Assembly (NCBI RefSeq): GCF_012516395.1
Contig: NZ_CP051206.1
Location: 2,524,501-2,588,500 of the forward strand
From: Dolichospermum flos-aquae CCAP 1403/13F
GTDB lineage: Bacteria > Cyanobacteriota > Cyanobacteriia > Cyanobacteriales > Nostocaceae
Direction of reading: 5' to 3'
Length of the DNA: 64,000 nucleotides
The notes below the pieces were generated by a model, which searched no databases, was not told the origin of the DNA, and was given only the letters and a program-made list of their open reading frames with translations. A program made the translations under genes and the position numbers. Below are positions 8,654-18,007 of this stretch, piece by piece (position 1 is the stretch's first letter; each line of letters opens with the position of its first letter).

Positions 8654-10336
8654 ATGGACGGTTGCTTCTCGGTTCACTGCATAAATCCCCATTGTCAACG
8701 TCCCTATCCTCAACCCTGGGGAAACAAATTCTGTAACAGTTGTGGCGCACCGCTGCATCTGTTAAATCGCTATTTCTCTCTTAAACCTCTCGGTGCGGGG
8801 GGATTTGCCCAAATTTACACAATTTGGGATGAAAAGACACAGACAGAAAAAGTGCTGAAGGTGCTGGTAGAAACCTCACCCAAGGCGCTGGAATTATTCA
8901 AGCAAGAAGCGGAAGTTTTAAGTAGTTTCCGTAACTCTGGCGTACCTACAGTTGATGCTGACGGATATTTTCAAATTAATTTGGTTAACCCTAAACCCTA
9001 TCAATTACCATGTTTGGTGATGGAAAAAATCAATGGCTACACTTTAGAGGAAGTATTAATAAATTCTCCTCAAGGTTGTTCCGAAGATTTGGTAATAGGT
9101 TGGTTTATTCAAGCTGTACAGATTTTACAGGAATTACATCAACGCCAAATTATTCACCGAGATATAAAACCTTCTAATTTAATGTTGCGTACTTCTACAC
9201 CCGCAACCCCTGGGAAGGATGATAAATTGGTGCTAATTGATTTTGGCGGCGCTAAACAATTTAGTGGTTCAGTTTTGCGATCGCATCCCACATCTACACG
9301 CTTGTACTCCTCCGGTTATAGTCCTTACGAACAAATTCGCGGTGGTAATGTTGGCCCAGCCGCAGATTTTTATGCTTTAGGACGGACTATAATTCAACTA
9401 CTAACAGGTAAGTATCCGCCAGACTTAGAAGATAGTCTGACAGGTAAATTACGCTGGCGTAATTACCGACAGATTAAATCAGATTTAGCGGATTTAATTG
9501 ATGAGATGGTACAGGATGATCCGAAATTTCGTCCAGCGGATGCAGCTATTATTCATAAGCGATTAATCAAGATTGCTTCTTTACGTCCACACAAGGGGTT
9601 ATTGATCAGCGCAGGTCATTGTGTTGTAACATCAATTACTGATATTACTCAATTCATAAGTAATACTACTGTATTTATAATTGAGGGAATATATAAATTT
9701 TTATTAGCTTGTTTGGCGACTATTTGGGTGATGATTCTGACAAGTATCTGCGCGGGAATCGGGACTATAATTGGTTTTGTCCTGGCTTACCATACCAGTT
9801 TAGGCGATCGCTGGCTAGAATTACTAACCTATCCATTACCAACATTAGTCCAAAAACAACCTTATATAGCCGCAGAAACTATAGTTTATGGTTTTGCAGG
9901 TTTGGGAACAGGTTGGGGATTAACCTTATCAGGCTGTTTTGGACAAAAGCGGCGGTTTCTGATCACAGCTTTAATGGGCTTAATTGGCTACAGTTTAGGC
10001 TGGATAGCTTGTCAATTCATCACCACTCCAAATCCGGCGGAAAGCTTAGTCACATGGATTTTAATCTCACTTCCCCTCTTAACCCTCGGCTTAGGTCTTC
10101 GCAGTCATCAAATCGCTTATGCTGTCATTGCAGGTTTAGGTAGCGCCAACTTGATAGCCATTTTCGTGCGGTTAGGATTGAGACTGCATTTATTCCATTT
10201 TTCCAGTCAACCACAAGGGCTTGATGTATTTTCACCCATAGGTTTTTTTAGTTTAGTGAGTATCTTAATTAGTTTTTCCTTGAGTATAAGCTATTACCTA
10301 GTTGTCCCTTGCTTACGCTGGTTAGGTTGGCGATAA
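8654..10336 (+). CDS. Zinc-ribbon Ser/Thr protein kinase with C-terminal membrane helices
   Basis: 560 residues. An N-terminal zinc ribbon is formed by C9, C14, C27 and C30. A Hanks-type kinase domain follows: glycine loop LGAGGFAQ at 46-53, K69, catalytic HRDIKPSN at 168-175 and DFGGAK at 196-201. After residue 305 there is no extracellular sensor; instead about five to six hydrophobic segments (roughly 340-555) anchor the protein. This 4-Cys kinase plus membrane bundle is a cyanobacterial architecture. All catalytic residues are present, so it should phosphorylate proteins at the membrane; targets are unknown. It is monocistronic, with a palindromic repeat just downstream. Confidence 0.9.
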   Translation: MDGCFSVHCINPHCQRPYPQPWGNKFCNSCGAPLHLLNRYFSLKPLGAGGFAQIYTIWDEKTQTEKVLKVLVETSPKALELFKQEAEVLSSFRNSGVPTVDADGYFQINLVNPKPYQLPCLVMEKINGYTLEEVLINSPQGCSEDLVIGWFIQAVQILQELHQRQIIHRDIKPSNLMLRTSTPATPGKDDKLVLIDFGGAKQFSGSVLRSHPTSTRLYSSGYSPYEQIRGGNVGPAADFYALGRTIIQLLTGKYPPDLEDSLTGKLRWRNYRQIKSDLADLIDEMVQDDPKFRPADAAIIHKRLIKIASLRPHKGLLISAGHCVVTSITDITQFISNTTVFIIEGIYKFLLACLATIWVMILTSICAGIGTIIGFVLAYHTSLGDRWLELLTYPLPTLVQKQPYIAAETIVYGFAGLGTGWGLTLSGCFGQKRRFLITALMGLIGYSLGWIACQFITTPNPAESLVTWILISLPLLTLGLGLRSHQIAYAVIAGLGSANLIAIFVRLGLRLHLFHFSSQPQGLDVFSPIGFFSLVSILISFSLSISYYLVVPCLRWLGWR

Positions 10337-10360
10337 CAATTAAAAATTCTTGAAACCCTT

Positions 10361-10388
10361 GTAGAGACGTTCCATGGAACGTCTCTAC
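10361..10388. repeat. 28-bp perfect palindrome, left copy bounding the NACHT island
   Basis: GTAGAGACGTTCC followed by its exact reverse complement, centred on CCATGG, within a longer conserved block beginning TTGAAACCC and ending AGATGTCT. The same block recurs at 17352-17379, so the ATPase/NACHT pair is bracketed by direct copies. As RNA it would form a strong hairpin and could end transcription of the kinase gene. The family looks like a small non-autonomous dispersed repeat. Confidence 0.85.
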
Positions 10389-10525
10389 GATCTTTTTAGG
10401 AGATGTCTTTTGTAATCCCCCTAGTGGAATATTTTTATTTTTATATAAGATTCCTACGGGCAAAAACAATACTAAAATAAAGATAATACCCTAAAACACA
10501 GCTTTTTGCCCAGTTTATCACTAAT

Positions 10526-11827
10526 ATGAGTAATACCAATTTTTGGAAACCTGCTTACCAGCGATTCAAACCAGAAGAACCTCTGGCTACATCTGAAGAG
10601 TTGCAAAATTTCTACGTCCCCAGAGATAATAGTCCTGTAGACCAGCTTGTTAGTTTATTGGAAATGGAAGATGATCCAGTAAAATTTTTACTTGCAGGTC
10701 ATCGAGGAGGCGGTAAAACTACTGAACTGCGACGACTAGAACAAAAATTAGCGAATACACATACTGTTATTTGGATAGATACCCAAACAGCGTTAGATAG
10801 ATATAACATTGGCTATGCTGAAGTTGTAGTTTTGATTGGTTTGCAAATTGCACAGCAAGCTATTAAATCTAATTGGTTATTTAAAAAAGATAAATTATTA
10901 ACAAGACTACAGGACGCACTCAAGACAGTAGTTTATCAAGATAAAGGTACTCAAACTGAAGGTTTGGGAATGCCAGAATTTATCGAAAAAGCAGGATTAA
11001 TTCTCAAACGTGGCTTAACTAGAGAAATCACTAAAACCGTTAATGTCCGTCCAAAATTAACGGAAATTATTGATAGCGTTAATGAAATTATTATCGCTGC
11101 TGAAAAAGAAAATAACCAAAAATTATTTATTATTGTTGATGGACTAGATAGACATGATTTAGTTACAGCTTTGGATATGTTTTCTAGTTCATTGCTGACA
11201 GAATTAAGCTGTCATATTATCTATGCAATTCCCATTGCTTTGCGATATTCGCCGAACTTTAGACAACCAATGGAAAGCTTTCAAAAATGTTTGGATTTGA
11301 ATAATCCTCCCGTTTTTGAATGTGATAATAATCTATGTCCTACAAATAACCCTGATCATATAGGCAGACAAACTCTCGTGAATATAATTAATAAACGTCT
11401 CGATAGCTTAGGCTATGATTATCAAGGTTTATTTACACCTGATGCTTTAGAACTGATTTGTGAAAAAAGCGGTGGTGTGATTCGAGATTTAGTGAGATTG
11501 GCGCGGACTGCTTGTGAAATTGGACAGCGGAAAAAATTGAAGTTAGTAGATTTGGACATTGCAAAAGAAGCTGTGCAAGAAGTCCGCAGAGAATATAATT
11601 TAGATGATTATCAATATCCCGAAATTCATTCAGTACATATTACTGGAAAGTTAACCTCTAAAACCCACAGTTTACCAAAAAAAGGCGAATTTATTATTTG
11701 TGATGAGCTTTTACAAAACAAACTCGTTTTGGGTTATTACAATTCTAGACAAAAATCTTGGTTTGATATTAATCCTATTTTGATAGAGGATTTACAACGT
11801 TGGCAAGAAGCTAACAATTTTCTATAA
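10526..11827 (+). CDS. AAA-type P-loop ATPase paired with NACHT-TPR protein
   Basis: 433 residues, soluble. Walker A GHRGGGKTT is at about 58-66 and a Walker B strand LFIIVDGLDRHD at about 200-211. The remainder looks like an AAA winged-helix lid (QEVRREYNLDDYQY near 365). The N-terminus (WKPAYQRFKPEEPL) resembles ATPases that are encoded next to STAND-type proteins in multicellular bacteria. The C-terminal 60 residues form a small beta-rich tail. It lies 48 bp upstream of the NACHT-TPR gene in the same direction, so the two are probably one operon. The likely role is an ATP-driven partner or loader for that protein; no enzymatic effector is visible. Role is inference. Confidence 0.75.
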   Translation: MSNTNFWKPAYQRFKPEEPLATSEELQNFYVPRDNSPVDQLVSLLEMEDDPVKFLLAGHRGGGKTTELRRLEQKLANTHTVIWIDTQTALDRYNIGYAEVVVLIGLQIAQQAIKSNWLFKKDKLLTRLQDALKTVVYQDKGTQTEGLGMPEFIEKAGLILKRGLTREITKTVNVRPKLTEIIDSVNEIIIAAEKENNQKLFIIVDGLDRHDLVTALDMFSSSLLTELSCHIIYAIPIALRYSPNFRQPMESFQKCLDLNNPPVFECDNNLCPTNNPDHIGRQTLVNIINKRLDSLGYDYQGLFTPDALELICEKSGGVIRDLVRLARTACEIGQRKKLKLVDLDIAKEAVQEVRREYNLDDYQYPEIHSVHITGKLTSKTHSLPKKGEFIICDELLQNKLVLGYYNSRQKSWFDINPILIEDLQRWQEANNFL

Positions 11828-11875
11828 AAACGTGACTATTTTGGAAAGATTACTAATTATCAACTGGTGCTAACT

Positions 11876-14800
11876 ATGCTTTCTGATGACTCCAATTATA
11901 TTTTGACCGAAGCTGATAAAGAAGAATTAGAAAAATTAGTCAGCATCTTAGAACTTTCCAGTGGAACAACAATTATTTTTGCTGTTGCACCAGAAAGTAG
12001 TCCTCAACATTTGGTTGTGCAACAGCTACAAGAAGATTTAAAAAAATGCGAAGAAAAATTTACTTTTGACAACTTTTTTTATAGTGAAAATTCTTTTCAT
12101 AACTTCTTATATAGTTTAGATAAAAATCTGCAATCAGAACGTAAATTAATTATGGCATTTGGTCTTGATCAATTGCCTGCAGATAGATTGGTTAGAGAAA
12201 TGCAGCGTTTAAACTTAGGACGAGAAGAGTTATTTGGTAGAAACTTAATATTAATTTTTTGGTTAAATCAAATAAACTTTCTAGATGAATTTCGTCAGCG
12301 TGCGCCGGATTTTTGGGATTGGCGAGAAAAGGTAGTACAATTTGAAACTCGTAATCCCTTACTTTATCCTTATTTAGAATGGTTAATTGCTGAAAACTCC
12401 TATCTCAAAATGAGTGGGGTAATGCAAGTAAATCGTCAAGTTGATATTTTCCTTGACCAGATTTATGTTTCTCTGCAAGCACAACGACGACAAGAAATCA
12501 TTGATACTTCTGAAAGTAGAGAAATTGAAGCAGTAACTGTTTTAAAATCTCCCTCTAATTTTAGTAGAGGTAAAGGAACAGGAATTGATTTCGATGATAG
12601 GGATGAAACTGAATATTATCAACCTGTACGAGAAAAAATCACATCCATATCTAGTACCAAAACCATTACCGAAAAGGTTGAATTATCCCAGGCAGTAAAA
12701 GCAAATTCTTACAGCGTCATTTTAGGCGCTCCTGGTGCGGGTAAAACTACTCTTTTACGTTATTTAGCTCTGCATTTTGCCACAGCTAAAAGGGATGATC
12801 AAGAAACGGTAATTGGTGGGGAAGCAAAGGAAGATTTAGGAAAAACTCTCCTGCCTATTTTCTTTCGTATTGCTGATTATGCAGAGAAACTAAAACAACA
12901 ACCAAATTTAACTTTAACTGAATATTTACGCCAATTTTATCGTCAGTGGGAAGCTCATTTTCAAACACAAAGAAAAATGGGAACTGAGGGAGCAACATTT
13001 TTATTAGATGCTGCTATGAGTGAAGGAAAATCCTTAATATTGCTAGATGGTTTAGATGAAGTATTTGACCAAGAAAGCCGGAGACAAATTGTAGAATCTA
13101 TTAATCAGTTTGTTAATGATTTTTCTAATAATAAATATGTAATTACTAGCCGCATTGCTGGTTATCGTGATGTGCAATTAAGCAGCCGTTTTGCTGAATA
13201 TATGATTGAAGATATGAGCAGCGAAAAGGTAGAACAGTTTTTATATCGCTGGTGTCGCACAGTAGAAAAAGCACAACAACCAGATGCTAATGAAGAACAA
13301 ATAGAAAGAAAAGGAAATGAGCAAGCAGCAAATATTTTAAACGCAATTCAAGAAAATGAAGGTGTGAAGCGTTTAACCGCAAATCCCCTATTGTTAACTA
13401 TTTTGGCACTGATTCACCGCAATGGGGAACGTTTACCTAACCGTCGGGTGAGGTTATATGAGTTAGCAGTGCAAACTTTGATAGAAGATTGGCAACTTAG
13501 TAAAAAATTACCAGATGCTCCAAAAGTCGTATTAAGAGAAACTGAAGTAGTAGAACTTTTAGCACCTTTAGCATATTGGATGCACGAAGAAAAACCTTCT
13601 GGTTTAGTAACAGAAACGGAGGTACAAGAACAACTAGCAACCAAAATGGCAGAACTGAATGATGCTGAACCAGAATCAGATTTAGTGCGTCAAGCTGTGG
13701 GAGAATTTTTGCGGAAAGTGAGGGAAACAACAGGTTTATTTGTGGAACGCGCACCTGGTGTTTATGGTTTTATGCACCTCACCTTTGAAGAATATTTTGC
13801 GGCTCGTTATATTGCAGATAATGACCAAAGTAAAATTCAAGAACTAATTCAACAACATCTCCATGAACCACGCTGGAATGAGCCAATTCTGTTGTCTTTA
13901 GGGTATTACGGAATTCATCTGCCTGGACAAGTTAAGAAATTAATAGATCAATTATTTAGTAATTTACAAGATTATCAACCTCTACTACAATATGGCGATA
14001 TAAAAATAAAAACCTCTGTTGCTGATAATACAATTATTATTTACTTAAAAGCAGAAGATGATTCAGCAGAAATATTAAAGAATGTAGAATTTAATTTGCA
14101 AGATTTATTTTTTGCAGGACAAGTTATTGCTGAAGTTGAAGTTAGTAATATTTTCCGCAAAAATGTTATTGAAAAATTAGTTATTACTTACATTGGTATA
14201 GATGATGATTTTGATAATGATCTAATTAAGCAACTTTTGCGAACATTACGGAAAATTGAGCTATTTTATCAGAAAGGTGAAGTCATAGCCAAATTAACAG
14301 CAGTAGCTAATGATGTAAGTCTATCTCAAGAAATGCAGATTAAAGCGAAAACAGCTATTTTGTATGTTGCTTGTGGTCAATCATTAGGATTAGATAATTA
14401 TGTAACAGAAATTGTTAATCAATTAGAATCTTCGCTTTTTGATAGTATTAGAAATTTGGTAAAAGAACTGGGTGAAGAAATGACACCTAACCTAGAAATT
14501 AGCCGTCAATTTCATAATCATGAAGAAGGTTATAAAATGGCATTAATTTTTATCACTGCGATGTCTTATGTCAGAAAAGAAAATTATGATAAAGCTATTA
14601 CAATTTTTGAAGATATAGACCAAAAATCAAATAATAGTCTTAAATCATTTATTTATTGGTCTTTGGCTATATGTTATGAAGAGAAAGAAAATTATGATAA
14701 AGCTAATGAATATTATGATAAATGCAAAATAGCTGATGATAATCTATCAAATACATCATTTATTTTTTGGAGAAATTGGGGTTGGTGTCAGAAATCAAAC

Positions 14801-17287
14801 AACAAACATGAACAATCACTTGATTACTACCAAAATGCACTAAATATTATTAATAAAATTCAACATTTCAAATATAAAGCAAGCTGTCTTTTCAGTATAG
14901 GCAGAGTTTATCAAGATTGGGAAAAATACGAACAGGCAATAAATTACTACGAACAAAGTCGGGAACTTTATCAACAATTAGATAAAGAGAAAGATGTAGC
15001 TGATTTGTGGTATTGGATAGCTGTTTGCTATAGAGAATGGGGAAAATATCAACAAGCTGTTGATTGTCAAAACAAAAAATTAGCAAAATATCAGCAGTTA
15101 GAAGACCAAGATAGAATTGCTCTTGCTTACTATCAACTAGGAACGATTTATCAAGGTTGGGGTAAATACGAACAAGCGATAAGTTTCCATGAACAAAGTC
15201 GGGAACTTTATCAACAATTAGGTAAAGAAAAAAATGCAGCTAATCAGTGGTATTGGATAGCTGATTGCTATAGAGAATGGGGAAAATATCAGCAAGCTGT
15301 TGATTGTAAAAATCAAGATTTAGCGATTCTTCAGCAGTTAAATGACCAAGATAGAATTGCTCTTGCTTACTATCAGCTAGGAAGAATTTATCAAGGTTGG
15401 GGTAAATACGAACAGGCAATCAGTTACTACGAACAAAGTCGGGAACTTTATCAACAATTAGATAAAGAGAAAGATGTAGCTGATTTGTGGTATTGGATAG
15501 CTGTTTGCTATAGAGAATGGGGAAAATATCAGCAAGCTGTTGATTGTGAAAACCAAGATTTAGCTATTCGTCAGCAGTTGAATGACCAAGTTAATATTGC
15601 TGATGCTTACTTTCAGCTAGGAAGGATTTATCAAGGTTGGGGTAAATACGAACAGGCAATCAGTTACCACGAACAAAGTCGGGAACTTTATCAACAATTA
15701 GATAAAGAGAAAGATGTAGCTGATTTGTGGTATTGGATAGCTGTTTGCTATAGAGAATGGGGAAAATATCAACAAGCTGTTGATTGTGAAAACAAAAAAT
15801 TAGCTATTCGTCAGCAGTTGAATGACCAAGTTAATATTGCTGATGCTTACTTTCAGCTAGGAAGGATTTATCAAGGTTGGGGTAAATACGAACAGGCAAT
15901 CAGTTACCACGAACAAAGTCGGGAACTTTATCAACAATTAGGTAAGGAAAAAAATGTAGCTAATCAGTGGTATTGGATAGCTGATTGCTATAGAGAATGG
16001 GGAAAATATCAGCAAGCTGTTGATTGTGAAAACCAAGATTTAGCTATTCGTCAGCAGTTGAATGACCAAGTTAATATTGCTGATGCTTACTTTCAGCTAG
16101 GATGGATTTATCAAAGTTGGGGTAAATACAAACAAGTAATAAGTTACTACGAACAAAGTCGGGAACTTTATGAACAATTAGATAAAGAGAAAGATGTCGC
16201 TGATTCGTGGTATTGGATAGCTGATTGCTATAGAGAATGGGGAAAATATCAGCAAGCTGTTGATTGTGAAAACCAAGATTTAGCTATTCGTCAGCAGTTG
16301 AATGACCAAGATAGAATTGCTCTTGCTTACTATCAACTAGGAAGGATTTATCAAGGTTGGGGTAAATACGAACAGGCAATAAATTACCACGAACAAAGTC
16401 GGGAACTTTATCAACAATTAGATAAAGAGAAAGATGTAGCTGATTTGTGGTATTGGATAGCTGTTTGCTATAGAGAATGGGGAAAATATCAGCAAGCTGT
16501 TGATTGTGAAAACCAAGATTTAGCAATTCGTCAGCAGTTGAATGACCAAGTTAATATTGCTGATGCTTACTTTCAGCTAGGATGGATTTATCAAAGTTGG
16601 GGTAAATACAAACAAGTAATAAGTTACTACGAACAAAGTCGGGAACTTTATGAACAATTAGATAAAGAGAAAGATGTCGCTATACGGTTTCGACAAATTG
16701 CTTACTGTCAAATCTTATTAGCCAAAAATACCAAAAATACAATAGAAGCTGCTGAGTTACTGGTACAAGCTGAGAAAAATATCCACCAAGCTATAGAAAT
16801 CAATACTCTAGGACAATATCAAGAAAATCTTGCTTACGATTACACTACACTCAGTTTACTTTACTCAGCAGATCTACATCTTTTACCTGTTGATAACTCT
16901 TCAATACAGGAAAAGATTGGTTTATTTGAGGAATCCTATCACAAAGGCTTAACTTATTTTGATGAACTGGGACAAATAGTAAATAAGGCCGAAGAAGCTT
17001 TAGATATAGCTCGTGTTTACCTAGAGGTAGAAGTTCTAGAAAATCTTGCCCGTAGCGAAGAAATAGCTCAAGGATGTTTAGAAATATTTCAAGATTACAA
17101 CCGCCAAAAATTGACAGCTTCAGCATACAAGCTGTTAGGGGAAATTCACCTGAAACGGACACAGCAAAATCAGCCTGATAATCAAGTTATTGCTCATCAG
17201 TTTTTAACTCAGAGTCTACAAATTTACCAAGATTTAGATTTACAGAAACAAGTTGGAGAGATAAGCATGATACTGGATAATGTATAA
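11876..17287 (+). CDS. Giant NACHT NTPase with degenerate N-terminal NTPase-like domain and TPR array
   Basis: 1803 residues from ATG 11876; an in-frame GTG three codons upstream (11867) is possible but neither has a clear ribosome-binding site. Residues 1-170 look like an NTPase fold that has lost its P-loop (strands TTIIFAVAP, RKLIMAFGLD, RNLILIFWL). A NACHT domain follows, with Walker A GAPGAGKTT near 285 and Walker B LILLDGLDEVFD near 388. A helical region extends to about 870, then TPRs. From about 1005 to 1605, 80-residue double-TPR units repeat eight times, nearly identical even in DNA. This is the STAND architecture of NLR-like sensors: the TPRs bind a signal and NACHT oligomerises. 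No effector domain is recognised at the N-terminus. An antiphage or self-recognition role is inferred. Confidence 0.85.
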   Translation: MLSDDSNYILTEADKEELEKLVSILELSSGTTIIFAVAPESSPQHLVVQQLQEDLKKCEEKFTFDNFFYSENSFHNFLYSLDKNLQSERKLIMAFGLDQLPADRLVREMQRLNLGREELFGRNLILIFWLNQINFLDEFRQRAPDFWDWREKVVQFETRNPLLYPYLEWLIAENSYLKMSGVMQVNRQVDIFLDQIYVSLQAQRRQEIIDTSESREIEAVTVLKSPSNFSRGKGTGIDFDDRDETEYYQPVREKITSISSTKTITEKVELSQAVKANSYSVILGAPGAGKTTLLRYLALHFATAKRDDQETVIGGEAKEDLGKTLLPIFFRIADYAEKLKQQPNLTLTEYLRQFYRQWEAHFQTQRKMGTEGATFLLDAAMSEGKSLILLDGLDEVFDQESRRQIVESINQFVNDFSNNKYVITSRIAGYRDVQLSSRFAEYMIEDMSSEKVEQFLYRWCRTVEKAQQPDANEEQIERKGNEQAANILNAIQENEGVKRLTANPLLLTILALIHRNGERLPNRRVRLYELAVQTLIEDWQLSKKLPDAPKVVLRETEVVELLAPLAYWMHEEKPSGLVTETEVQEQLATKMAELNDAEPESDLVRQAVGEFLRKVRETTGLFVERAPGVYGFMHLTFEEYFAARYIADNDQSKIQELIQQHLHEPRWNEPILLSLGYYGIHLPGQVKKLIDQLFSNLQDYQPLLQYGDIKIKTSVADNTIIIYLKAEDDSAEILKNVEFNLQDLFFAGQVIAEVEVSNIFRKNVIEKLVITYIGIDDDFDNDLIKQLLRTLRKIELFYQKGEVIAKLTAVANDVSLSQEMQIKAKTAILYVACGQSLGLDNYVTEIVNQLESSLFDSIRNLVKELGEEMTPNLEISRQFHNHEEGYKMALIFITAMSYVRKENYDKAITIFEDIDQKSNNSLKSFIYWSLAICYEEKENYDKANEYYDKCKIADDNLSNTSFIFWRNWGWCQKSNNKHEQSLDYYQNALNIINKIQHFKYKASCLFSIGRVYQDWEKYEQAINYYEQSRELYQQLDKEKDVADLWYWIAVCYREWGKYQQAVDCQNKKLAKYQQLEDQDRIALAYYQLGTIYQGWGKYEQAISFHEQSRELYQQLGKEKNAANQWYWIADCYREWGKYQQAVDCKNQDLAILQQLNDQDRIALAYYQLGRIYQGWGKYEQAISYYEQSRELYQQLDKEKDVADLWYWIAVCYREWGKYQQAVDCENQDLAIRQQLNDQVNIADAYFQLGRIYQGWGKYEQAISYHEQSRELYQQLDKEKDVADLWYWIAVCYREWGKYQQAVDCENKKLAIRQQLNDQVNIADAYFQLGRIYQGWGKYEQAISYHEQSRELYQQLGKEKNVANQWYWIADCYREWGKYQQAVDCENQDLAIRQQLNDQVNIADAYFQLGWIYQSWGKYKQVISYYEQSRELYEQLDKEKDVADSWYWIADCYREWGKYQQAVDCENQDLAIRQQLNDQDRIALAYYQLGRIYQGWGKYEQAINYHEQSRELYQQLDKEKDVADLWYWIAVCYREWGKYQQAVDCENQDLAIRQQLNDQVNIADAYFQLGWIYQSWGKYKQVISYYEQSRELYEQLDKEKDVAIRFRQIAYCQILLAKNTKNTIEAAELLVQAEKNIHQAIEINTLGQYQENLAYDYTTLSLLYSADLHLLPVDNSSIQEKIGLFEESYHKGLTYFDELGQIVNKAEEALDIARVYLEVEVLENLARSEEIAQGCLEIFQDYNRQKLTASAYKLLGEIHLKRTQQNQPDNQVIAHQFLTQSLQIYQDLDLQKQVGEISMILDNV
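14900..16690 (+). repeat. Eight 240-bp in-frame tandem repeats encoding TPR pairs
   Basis: The motif TAAATAC(G/A)AACA recurs about every 240 bp, near 14925, 15165, 15405, 15645, 15885, 16125, 16365 and 16605. Each unit encodes a TPR beginning IYQGWGKYEQAI and a second beginning CYREWGKYQQAV. The inner units are almost identical at the nucleotide level, including third codon positions, so they were copied recently or are kept alike by recombination. The first and last units are more divergent. Variation is concentrated at a few codons, for example DLWYWIAV versus NQWYWIAD, and NDQVNIADAYF versus NDQDRIALAYY. Confidence 0.95.
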
Positions 17288-17351
17288 TTAATTACTAATG
17301 ATTATTAATAAACACTTGGTGAGAATTAAATGTGCGTGGTTTGAAACCCGT

Positions 17352-17379
17352 GTAGAGACGTTCCATGGAACGTCTCTAC
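17352..17379. repeat. 28-bp perfect palindrome, right copy bounding the NACHT island
   Basis: Identical in its 28-bp core to the repeat at 10361-10388, and similar in flanks (TTGAAACCC before, TTTTTA and AGATGTCT after). It lies 65 bp past the NACHT-TPR stop and is followed by six T residues, so on the + strand it can also act as an intrinsic terminator for that operon. Confidence 0.85.
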
Positions 17380-17418
17380 TTTTTTACCAGATGTCTAATT
17401 ATCAGTTCCCCAAAACAC

Positions 17419-17730: not shown

Positions 17731-17847
17731 ATGGAAACATTGAATATGGAACGCGCTATTTCATTTTTAGGCATTTGTGTTTTCATCGGTATATGCTACG
17801 CCCTGTCCGTGAATCGTCAAGCTGTGCGTTGGCGGACAGTCGCCTAA
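17731..17847 (+). pseudogene. N-terminal fragment of a NupC-like nucleoside transporter
   Basis: A 38-residue frame, probably initiating at the internal ATG 17746 (MERAISFLGICVFIG). It runs through ALSVNRQAVRWRTVA and then hits TAA. A hydrophobic first helix followed by NRxAVRWRTV is the characteristic beginning of concentrative (Na+/H+-coupled) nucleoside transporters, which normally have about 400 residues. No continuation is seen in any frame over the next 150 bp, so the gene appears deleted after its first helix. It could instead be an independent small membrane protein, but the match to the family's start makes truncation more likely. Confidence 0.5.
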
Positions 17848-18007
17848 TGATGCCTTGCTGTTTTCCTAAGGGAACAGGGAACAGTTGTTACCAAAACTGT
17901 AACGATTGAGGATTTATGAATCTGTGGATGAGATAGTGAACAATTAGTACATTAGCAACGTCTTTTGCAATAGACACCCGAAAATCTGGAGTAATTGAGG
18001 TAAAAGG

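Follow-up and report, generated by a model that had tools for sequence, protein, structure and literature searches.

What does a P-loop ATPase contribute beside a giant NACHT-TPR protein that bears no recognised effector? The question is raised by two adjacent genes, here called A and B, of Dolichospermum flos-aquae CCAP 1403/13F. They lie in the window, the whole stretch of 64,000 nucleotides that we analysed, to which all coordinates refer unless a locus (L) is named. The initial annotation described a P-loop ATPase followed after 48 bp by an 1803-residue protein, and ORF calls, translations and the Walker motifs bear this out, with both genes on the plus strand. Their features are as follows.

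10526 to 11827, plus strand: gene A, a P-loop ATPase, KAP/STAND-like, 433 residues.
Gene A, motifs: Walker A GHRGGGKT at residues 58-65, Walker B LFIIVDGLDR at 200-209, invariant R291, and SGGxxR at 315-320.
Gene A, conserved C-terminal residues: Y404, W412 and P417.
11876 to 17287, plus strand: gene B, 1803 residues with its ATG at 11876, read as a putative sensor and adaptor protein.
11876 to 12493, plus strand: N-domain of B (residues 1-206), a predicted AAA+ domain without a P-loop, ORC/clamp-loader-like.
12704 to 13258, plus strand: NACHT NTPase core of B (residues 277-461), Walker A and B intact.
14900 to 16684, plus strand: array of near-identical 80-residue double-TPR units in B, seven full units and one partial.
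16823 to 17284, plus strand: C-terminal helical region of B, common to orthologues, TPR-like at best (TPR_12, E 0.002).

Gene A passes the KAP_NTPase model narrowly (21.3 bits, cut-off 20), and this model matches 37 of the 61 aligned A members at an E value of 0.001. KAP NTPases carry membrane segments inserted within the NTPase. The Pfam models nSTAND5 and AAA_16 also match gene A, both below their own cut-offs, and the likeness to the PADLOC candidate PDC-S20 (E 2e-5) and to NCBIfam ATPase_Sll1717 (E 1e-6, 28 bits and thus far below the cut-off of 75) is weak and lies in the P-loop region. In B, the intact NACHT domain and the TPR array of the initial annotation are confirmed by Pfam (PF05729, 43.7 bits against a cut-off of 26.7; TPR_12, E 2.8e-95), the NACHT domain having its Walker A, GAPGAGKTT, at residues 284-292 and its Walker B, LILLDGLDEV, at 387-396. 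At the DNA level the array appears inside B as a 240-bp tandem repeat of 7.4 copies with 91% matches (14907-16681). The motif FMHLTFEEYFAARYI, at residues 632-646 and 3' of the NACHT core, is one that we take to be of the winged-helix type. The NCBIfam model EruA, of the NACHT/antiviral STAND type, matches the window pair weakly, and neither A nor the B N-domain drew more than weak matches in sequence searches of the PDB.

The only GxxxxGK of B lies at residues 284-290, so there is no P-loop N-terminal to the NACHT domain, and no Pfam family covers the N-domain in the 73 members scanned, residues 1-235 of the window protein included. An AlphaFold model of middling confidence (mean pLDDT 76.5, pTM 0.63) finds its best Foldseek matches in ORC2/Cdc6 and clamp-loader AAA+ domains, with modest TM-scores of 0.34-0.47, normalised by query length, among the 50 matches listed. 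The predicted fold of the N-domain is therefore that of an ORC/clamp-loader-like AAA+ domain devoid of a P-loop, in line with the NTPase-like N-terminus first proposed. Profile comparison with A by hhalign returned a probability of 1% and an E value of 0.046, and common ancestry of the two is not shown by it. In an alignment of 72 of 76 N-domain stretches plus the window's (L153, two pieces of L168 and one of L171 were left out), R116 and D145 are invariant, together with an APDFWxW motif. On the fold comparison we reject an enzyme or effector, and in particular the predicted fold is not that of a metabolic enzyme. In place of the two roles originally offered for this domain, recruiting an effector in trans or being itself the output, the N-domain is best read as a putative docking domain for gene A, and not as an effector.

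If A is the partner, the two genes should be found together, and they are. The window's genome (G000, 5.2 Mb) holds seven copies of A, the window's included, by search with A, and for each of the other six the next downstream gene on the same strand bears the same kind of N-domain, giving six more pairs. Behind the N-domain there follow TPRs in four cases and, in two (L011, L013), TPR-like repeats, a STAND-type P-loop and WD40 repeats, the last assigned by Pfam and the remainder read from the sequence. Eight columns are invariant across these N-domains, and the six share only 18-24% identity with that of the window, a divergence that explains why a single-sequence search recovered only the window's own. 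The P-loop of A is kept in all seven copies and in 61 of 61 aligned members (the window's and 60 of 80 named loci, fetched partly with the P-loop pattern, with near-duplicates and broken copies left out).

Profiles built from the seven copies and run against the phylum found A in 32 of 117 genomes (117 places) and the B N-domain likewise in 32 (140 places), with both in 31 genomes. The N-domain lies downstream of A on the same strand within 3.5 kb at 100 of the 117 A places and within 1 kb at 98, with a median gap of 43 bp between matched stretches. Partial matches are among the 17 A places left without B, and one genome (G011) has a B that the profile missed (L200); stand-alone A genes also exist, for example L198 and L199. 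Conversely, 41 of the 140 B places are not the nearest B of any A and comprise tandem second domains, solo proteins of about 160-215 residues and the weakest partial matches.

Some solo N-domain proteins, of 165-172 residues and with no adjoining A, are at L183:4754-5260, L185:4747-5247, L187:4758-5261, L188:4771-5268 and L189:4742-5260. By eye, such genes often adjoin the same kind of neighbour gene; their products are possibly trans-acting regulators of the pairs.

Among the named loci with A, which are the best 80 of more and were found partly with the P-loop pattern, 73 have a downstream gene with the B N-domain; five of the other seven end within 270 bp past A, L102 has a broken A with no B found, and L108 has B upstream only. 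Some genomes occur twice among the loci (L092/L110, L093/L105, L082/L100, L101/L207 and L094/L106). The pair extends beyond the phylum to Archaea (three loci), Planctomycetes, Chloroflexi, Acidobacteria, Nitrospinota and Deltaproteobacteria; of 17 such loci inspected, those with a B match show, by eye, an N-domain followed by TPR-like repeats, some of them incomplete. Closer to the window, A is directly upstream of B in all 18 close orthologous loci from family genomes. Of 145 family genomes, 19 have an orthologue of A of at least 58% identity (20 places) and 18 have one of the B N-domain of at least 54% identity, the odd genome being G157, whose A has a stop. Two named Dolichospermum records carry an A 98% and 94% identical to the window's, and copies of A are often multiple in the cyanobacterial class genomes that have it; a search of phage records with gene A gave no match. 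This wide co-occurrence, in and outside the phylum, supports the initial view of the pair as one system in which A is the regular ATPase partner.

The two genes also diverge together. Distances of A and of the B N-domain correlate at 0.932 over 58 loci and at 0.895 when orthologues of the window's are set aside (45 loci), in both cases uncorrected for the species tree and with none of 2000 permutations reaching the observed value. Among the seven pairs of the window's own genome the correlation is 0.865, reached by 2 of 5040 random permutations; that these pairs share one genome makes the species tree unlikely as the whole cause. Gain and loss follow the same boundaries.

10340 to 17390, no strand: gain/loss unit of 7.05 kb, in which A and B are the only genes recognised.

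This unit is lacking in G247, where 31 bp stand between the aligned flanks, in G064 (690 bp) and in G072 (123 bp, for the most part undetermined bases); G249 has it between these two flanks, and G252 and G238 have it next to the left flank. Relatives of A are borne on plasmids in eight records, three typed conjugative and one mobilizable. A and B evolve and move as one unit. To the right of the module, about 2.1 kb present in G249 (L204) is missing at 17843-17869, including most of a gene for a 407-residue transporter-like protein.

Where, then, is the output? The window's own pair shows no recognised effector, as first noted, yet in some relatives output modules are joined to A. Of 172 family genomes, three carry an A-TIR fusion, and all three loci also hold a second A and two B N-domains. 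G024 has A first, A-TIR next and then a B with two tandem N-domains; the two other loci have the same arrangement, with the N-domains split over two frames in one. In each of these loci A and the N-domain are doubled together, which suggests one-to-one docking. The TIR-fused copies of A are divergent and lack the threonine of the P-loop, which is otherwise invariant, and the tail behind the TIR domain, EAD-like by eye, has no Pfam match at an E value of 1. One of the loci matches plasmid4 of Calothrix sp. NIES-4101 in coordinates and genes; on this plasmid, typed mobilizable, the A, A-TIR, B operon (L230:1552-11122, L232) adjoins partition-type genes. In a single further case, on a plasmid of Nostoc sp. 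C057, an A 67.8% identical to the window's forms the C-terminal part of a SAV_2336_NTERM protein and lies beside a VMAP gene and a MoxR-annotated ATPase. In VMAP systems the vWA component is the SAV_2336 protein; no vWA model matched. None of the 20 close A orthologues bears a TIR or SAV_2336 fusion. The likely answer to the missing effector is that output parts are joined to A in some relatives.

No third gene recurs within 200 bp downstream of B (86 loci, 36 same-strand neighbours), and a conserved effector gene in cis was rejected because the sole cluster of more than two members among these neighbours consists of broken pieces of B. A Ser/Thr kinase gene at 8654-10336 bears strong similarity to PADLOC PD-T4-6 profiles (E 2.8e-86). 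It is present in 16 of 16 genus genomes searched, and hence probably a core gene; this and its position outside the gain/loss unit rule it out as part of the module. A PADLOC scan of 10 window proteins other than A and B, this kinase among them, left eight without a match and gave one histidine kinase a weak match, and the location in a defence island that was to be checked is not supported by these proteins.

The reading that we favour, with slightly better than even confidence, is that of a conflict receptor split in two and NLR-like: B would sense and adapt, docking through its dead AAA+ domain, with A as the output arm. Its chief rival, which we consider unlikely and yet the most serious alternative, is a regulatory or assembly machine with no part in immunity, that is, a stress- or development-related A-B ATPase complex of large-genome bacteria whose TPRs pick clients. 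Such a machine would sit well with the make-up of most B proteins, an N-domain and TPRs with no effector recognised: in 50 of 51 C-terminal parts of B (a set that had skipped eight loci), 151 Pfam families were matched, and the 25 most frequent of these, which were inspected, are led by TPR (47), nSTAND1 (11) and WD40 (9). The lack of a recurrent third gene, the seven pairs in one genome and purifying selection on A (dN 0.009, dS 0.065 against G249) are equally in its favour. It accounts less well for the patchy, clean gain and loss within one genus, for the copies on plasmids, some of them typed conjugative or mobilizable, for fusions of A to TIR and at a VMAP locus, and for repeat arrays with fast turnover.

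This turnover is apparent from the array itself. The seven full 80-residue units of the window protein have a mean identity of 85%, against a mean of 61% between orthologues, and unit number spans 5 to 15 among the 22 rows that reach five, which represent 19 distinct proteins; a further four rows contain one to three, and several of the short ones end at contig edges. In comparison with three same-genus orthologues, conservation is lowest in the array (77-84%), whereas A, the N-domain, the NACHT domain and the middle region keep 92-98%; the C-terminal region of B keeps 80-91% in the two that cover it. The fungal NLR repeats are under concerted evolution, for which an array identity of 85% is the mark given in the available part of PMC4986451, and the pattern in B fits, by analogy, the regime described there.

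The filamentous habit of the host, which related Dolichospermum records suggest, adds to the case for a further alternative, strain self/non-self recognition after the manner of the fungal NACHT-repeat heterokaryon incompatibility genes. The array would then be a polymorphic recognition surface, as its identity, at the fungal mark, and its differing repeat number, up to 15 between orthologues, would allow; we think this improbable, given homologous pairs in archaea and planctomycetes and given that cell fusion is not known in these bacteria.

Two further features lie at the ends of the module.

10361 to 10388, no strand: perfect 28-bp palindrome at the left end, identical in sequence to the right-end copy.
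17352 to 17379, no strand: perfect 28-bp palindrome at the right end, identical in sequence to the left-end copy.

Both are present in G249 (L204) and neither in G252 (L207). That the two genes are neighbours merely through repeat-mediated mobility, the palindromes (24 exact copies in the window's genome) mobilising whatever they flank, is very improbable in view of the G252 module (L207, on the same contig as L101), which has the same left flank without palindromes and a B cut at its 3' end, of the co-divergence of A and B, and above all of their pairing across phyla, which largely refutes it. The palindrome may aid gain and loss of the module; as its general carrier it is ruled out by the same G252 module. 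It also occurs near other A-B pairs, exactly at L011:8957-8984, where it lies inside the B gene and is translated in frame as part of the protein, and with one mismatch at L012:2793-2820.

For the split receptor we propose the following course. B would rest with its NACHT domain closed until binding of an invader product to the TPR array opens that domain and lets B assemble, the NACHT NTPase acting as the switch. The dead AAA+ N-domain of B would dock one-to-one onto the live ATPase A, an arrangement that we liken to ORC or clamp-loader assemblies, which likewise combine dead with live subunits. Assembled N-domains would gather A subunits, and their ATP-dependent assembly would be the output or present one. 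The window's A may act alone or recruit an effector in trans, while in some relatives A bears TIR or is joined to a protein from a VMAP ternary system. The two-gene unit, its co-occurrence and co-divergence, the predicted fold, the conserved residues and the fusions rest on the results given above; the docking itself, the sensing, the direction of signalling from B to A and the conflict role with its antiphage purpose are inferred.

No description of the A-B pair was recognised in the open-licence literature searched. The closest published design found is the two-gene nSTAND2 system (Kaur et al. 2021, PMC8195603), which, in the part of the paper available, also pairs two neighbouring genes that each encode a STAND/AAA+ module; one module has eroded nucleotide-binding motifs and is fused to variable parts, and the system is likewise mobile and predicted to form a hetero-multimer. 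The same division of live and dead neighbours is found here, since A keeps its P-loop and the B N-domain, with its ORC-like predicted fold, has none. However, the nSTAND2 model PF20702, which is in the library, matches none of 61 A proteins (E 0.001) and none of 73 B N-domains (E 0.01). In contrast to the mostly GT4 or HEPN parts reported in that portion of PMC8195603, the dead domain here bears sensors (TPR, NACHT, nSTAND1, WD40), GT4 and HEPN not being among the 25 commonest families of the 50 C-terminal parts, and output modules, where seen, are on the live ATPase.

A catalytically dead STAND/ORC-Cdc6-like domain serving as sensor or adaptor at defence loci is also described, in the accessible parts of PMC7159879 and PMC12839542, for the MoxR-vWA ternary iSTAND systems and for BREX BrxB; unlike these, our module has no MoxR or vWA gene, its partner is a KAP-like ATPase and its domain is outside Pfam. 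With bacterial NACHT and antiviral STAND (Avs) proteins, B shares a central NACHT and variable C-terminal repeats. In the characterised ones effector, switch and sensor are usually one chain (PMC10907252, as far as its available text goes), whereas here the N-terminus is a predicted dead AAA+ domain with no recognised effector and the ATPase is encoded by a separate gene. Fungal NACHT-repeat NLRs share the array about 85% identical within one protein and the varying repeat number (PMC4986451, in its available part); the module differs in being bacterial and in two genes.

More broadly, and with somewhat less than even confidence, we suggest that such pairs form a new class of split NLR, widespread in bacteria and archaea, in which a dead AAA+ adaptor outside Pfam joins swappable sensors (TPR alone, NACHT-TPR or TPR-nSTAND1-WD40 behind the N-domain) one-to-one to a dedicated live ATPase, the output arm, onto which TIR-type effectors are grafted. 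The adaptor has had no Pfam model although gene A is present in 162 of 291 cyanobacterial class genomes searched and outside the phylum. If the proposal is true, a live/dead AAA+ pair would couple a sensor and an output arm made as separate proteins, a general plug-in way of exchanging sensors and effectors. The pair makes signal transmission by a catalytically dead AAA+ subunit testable, and would do so in immunity.
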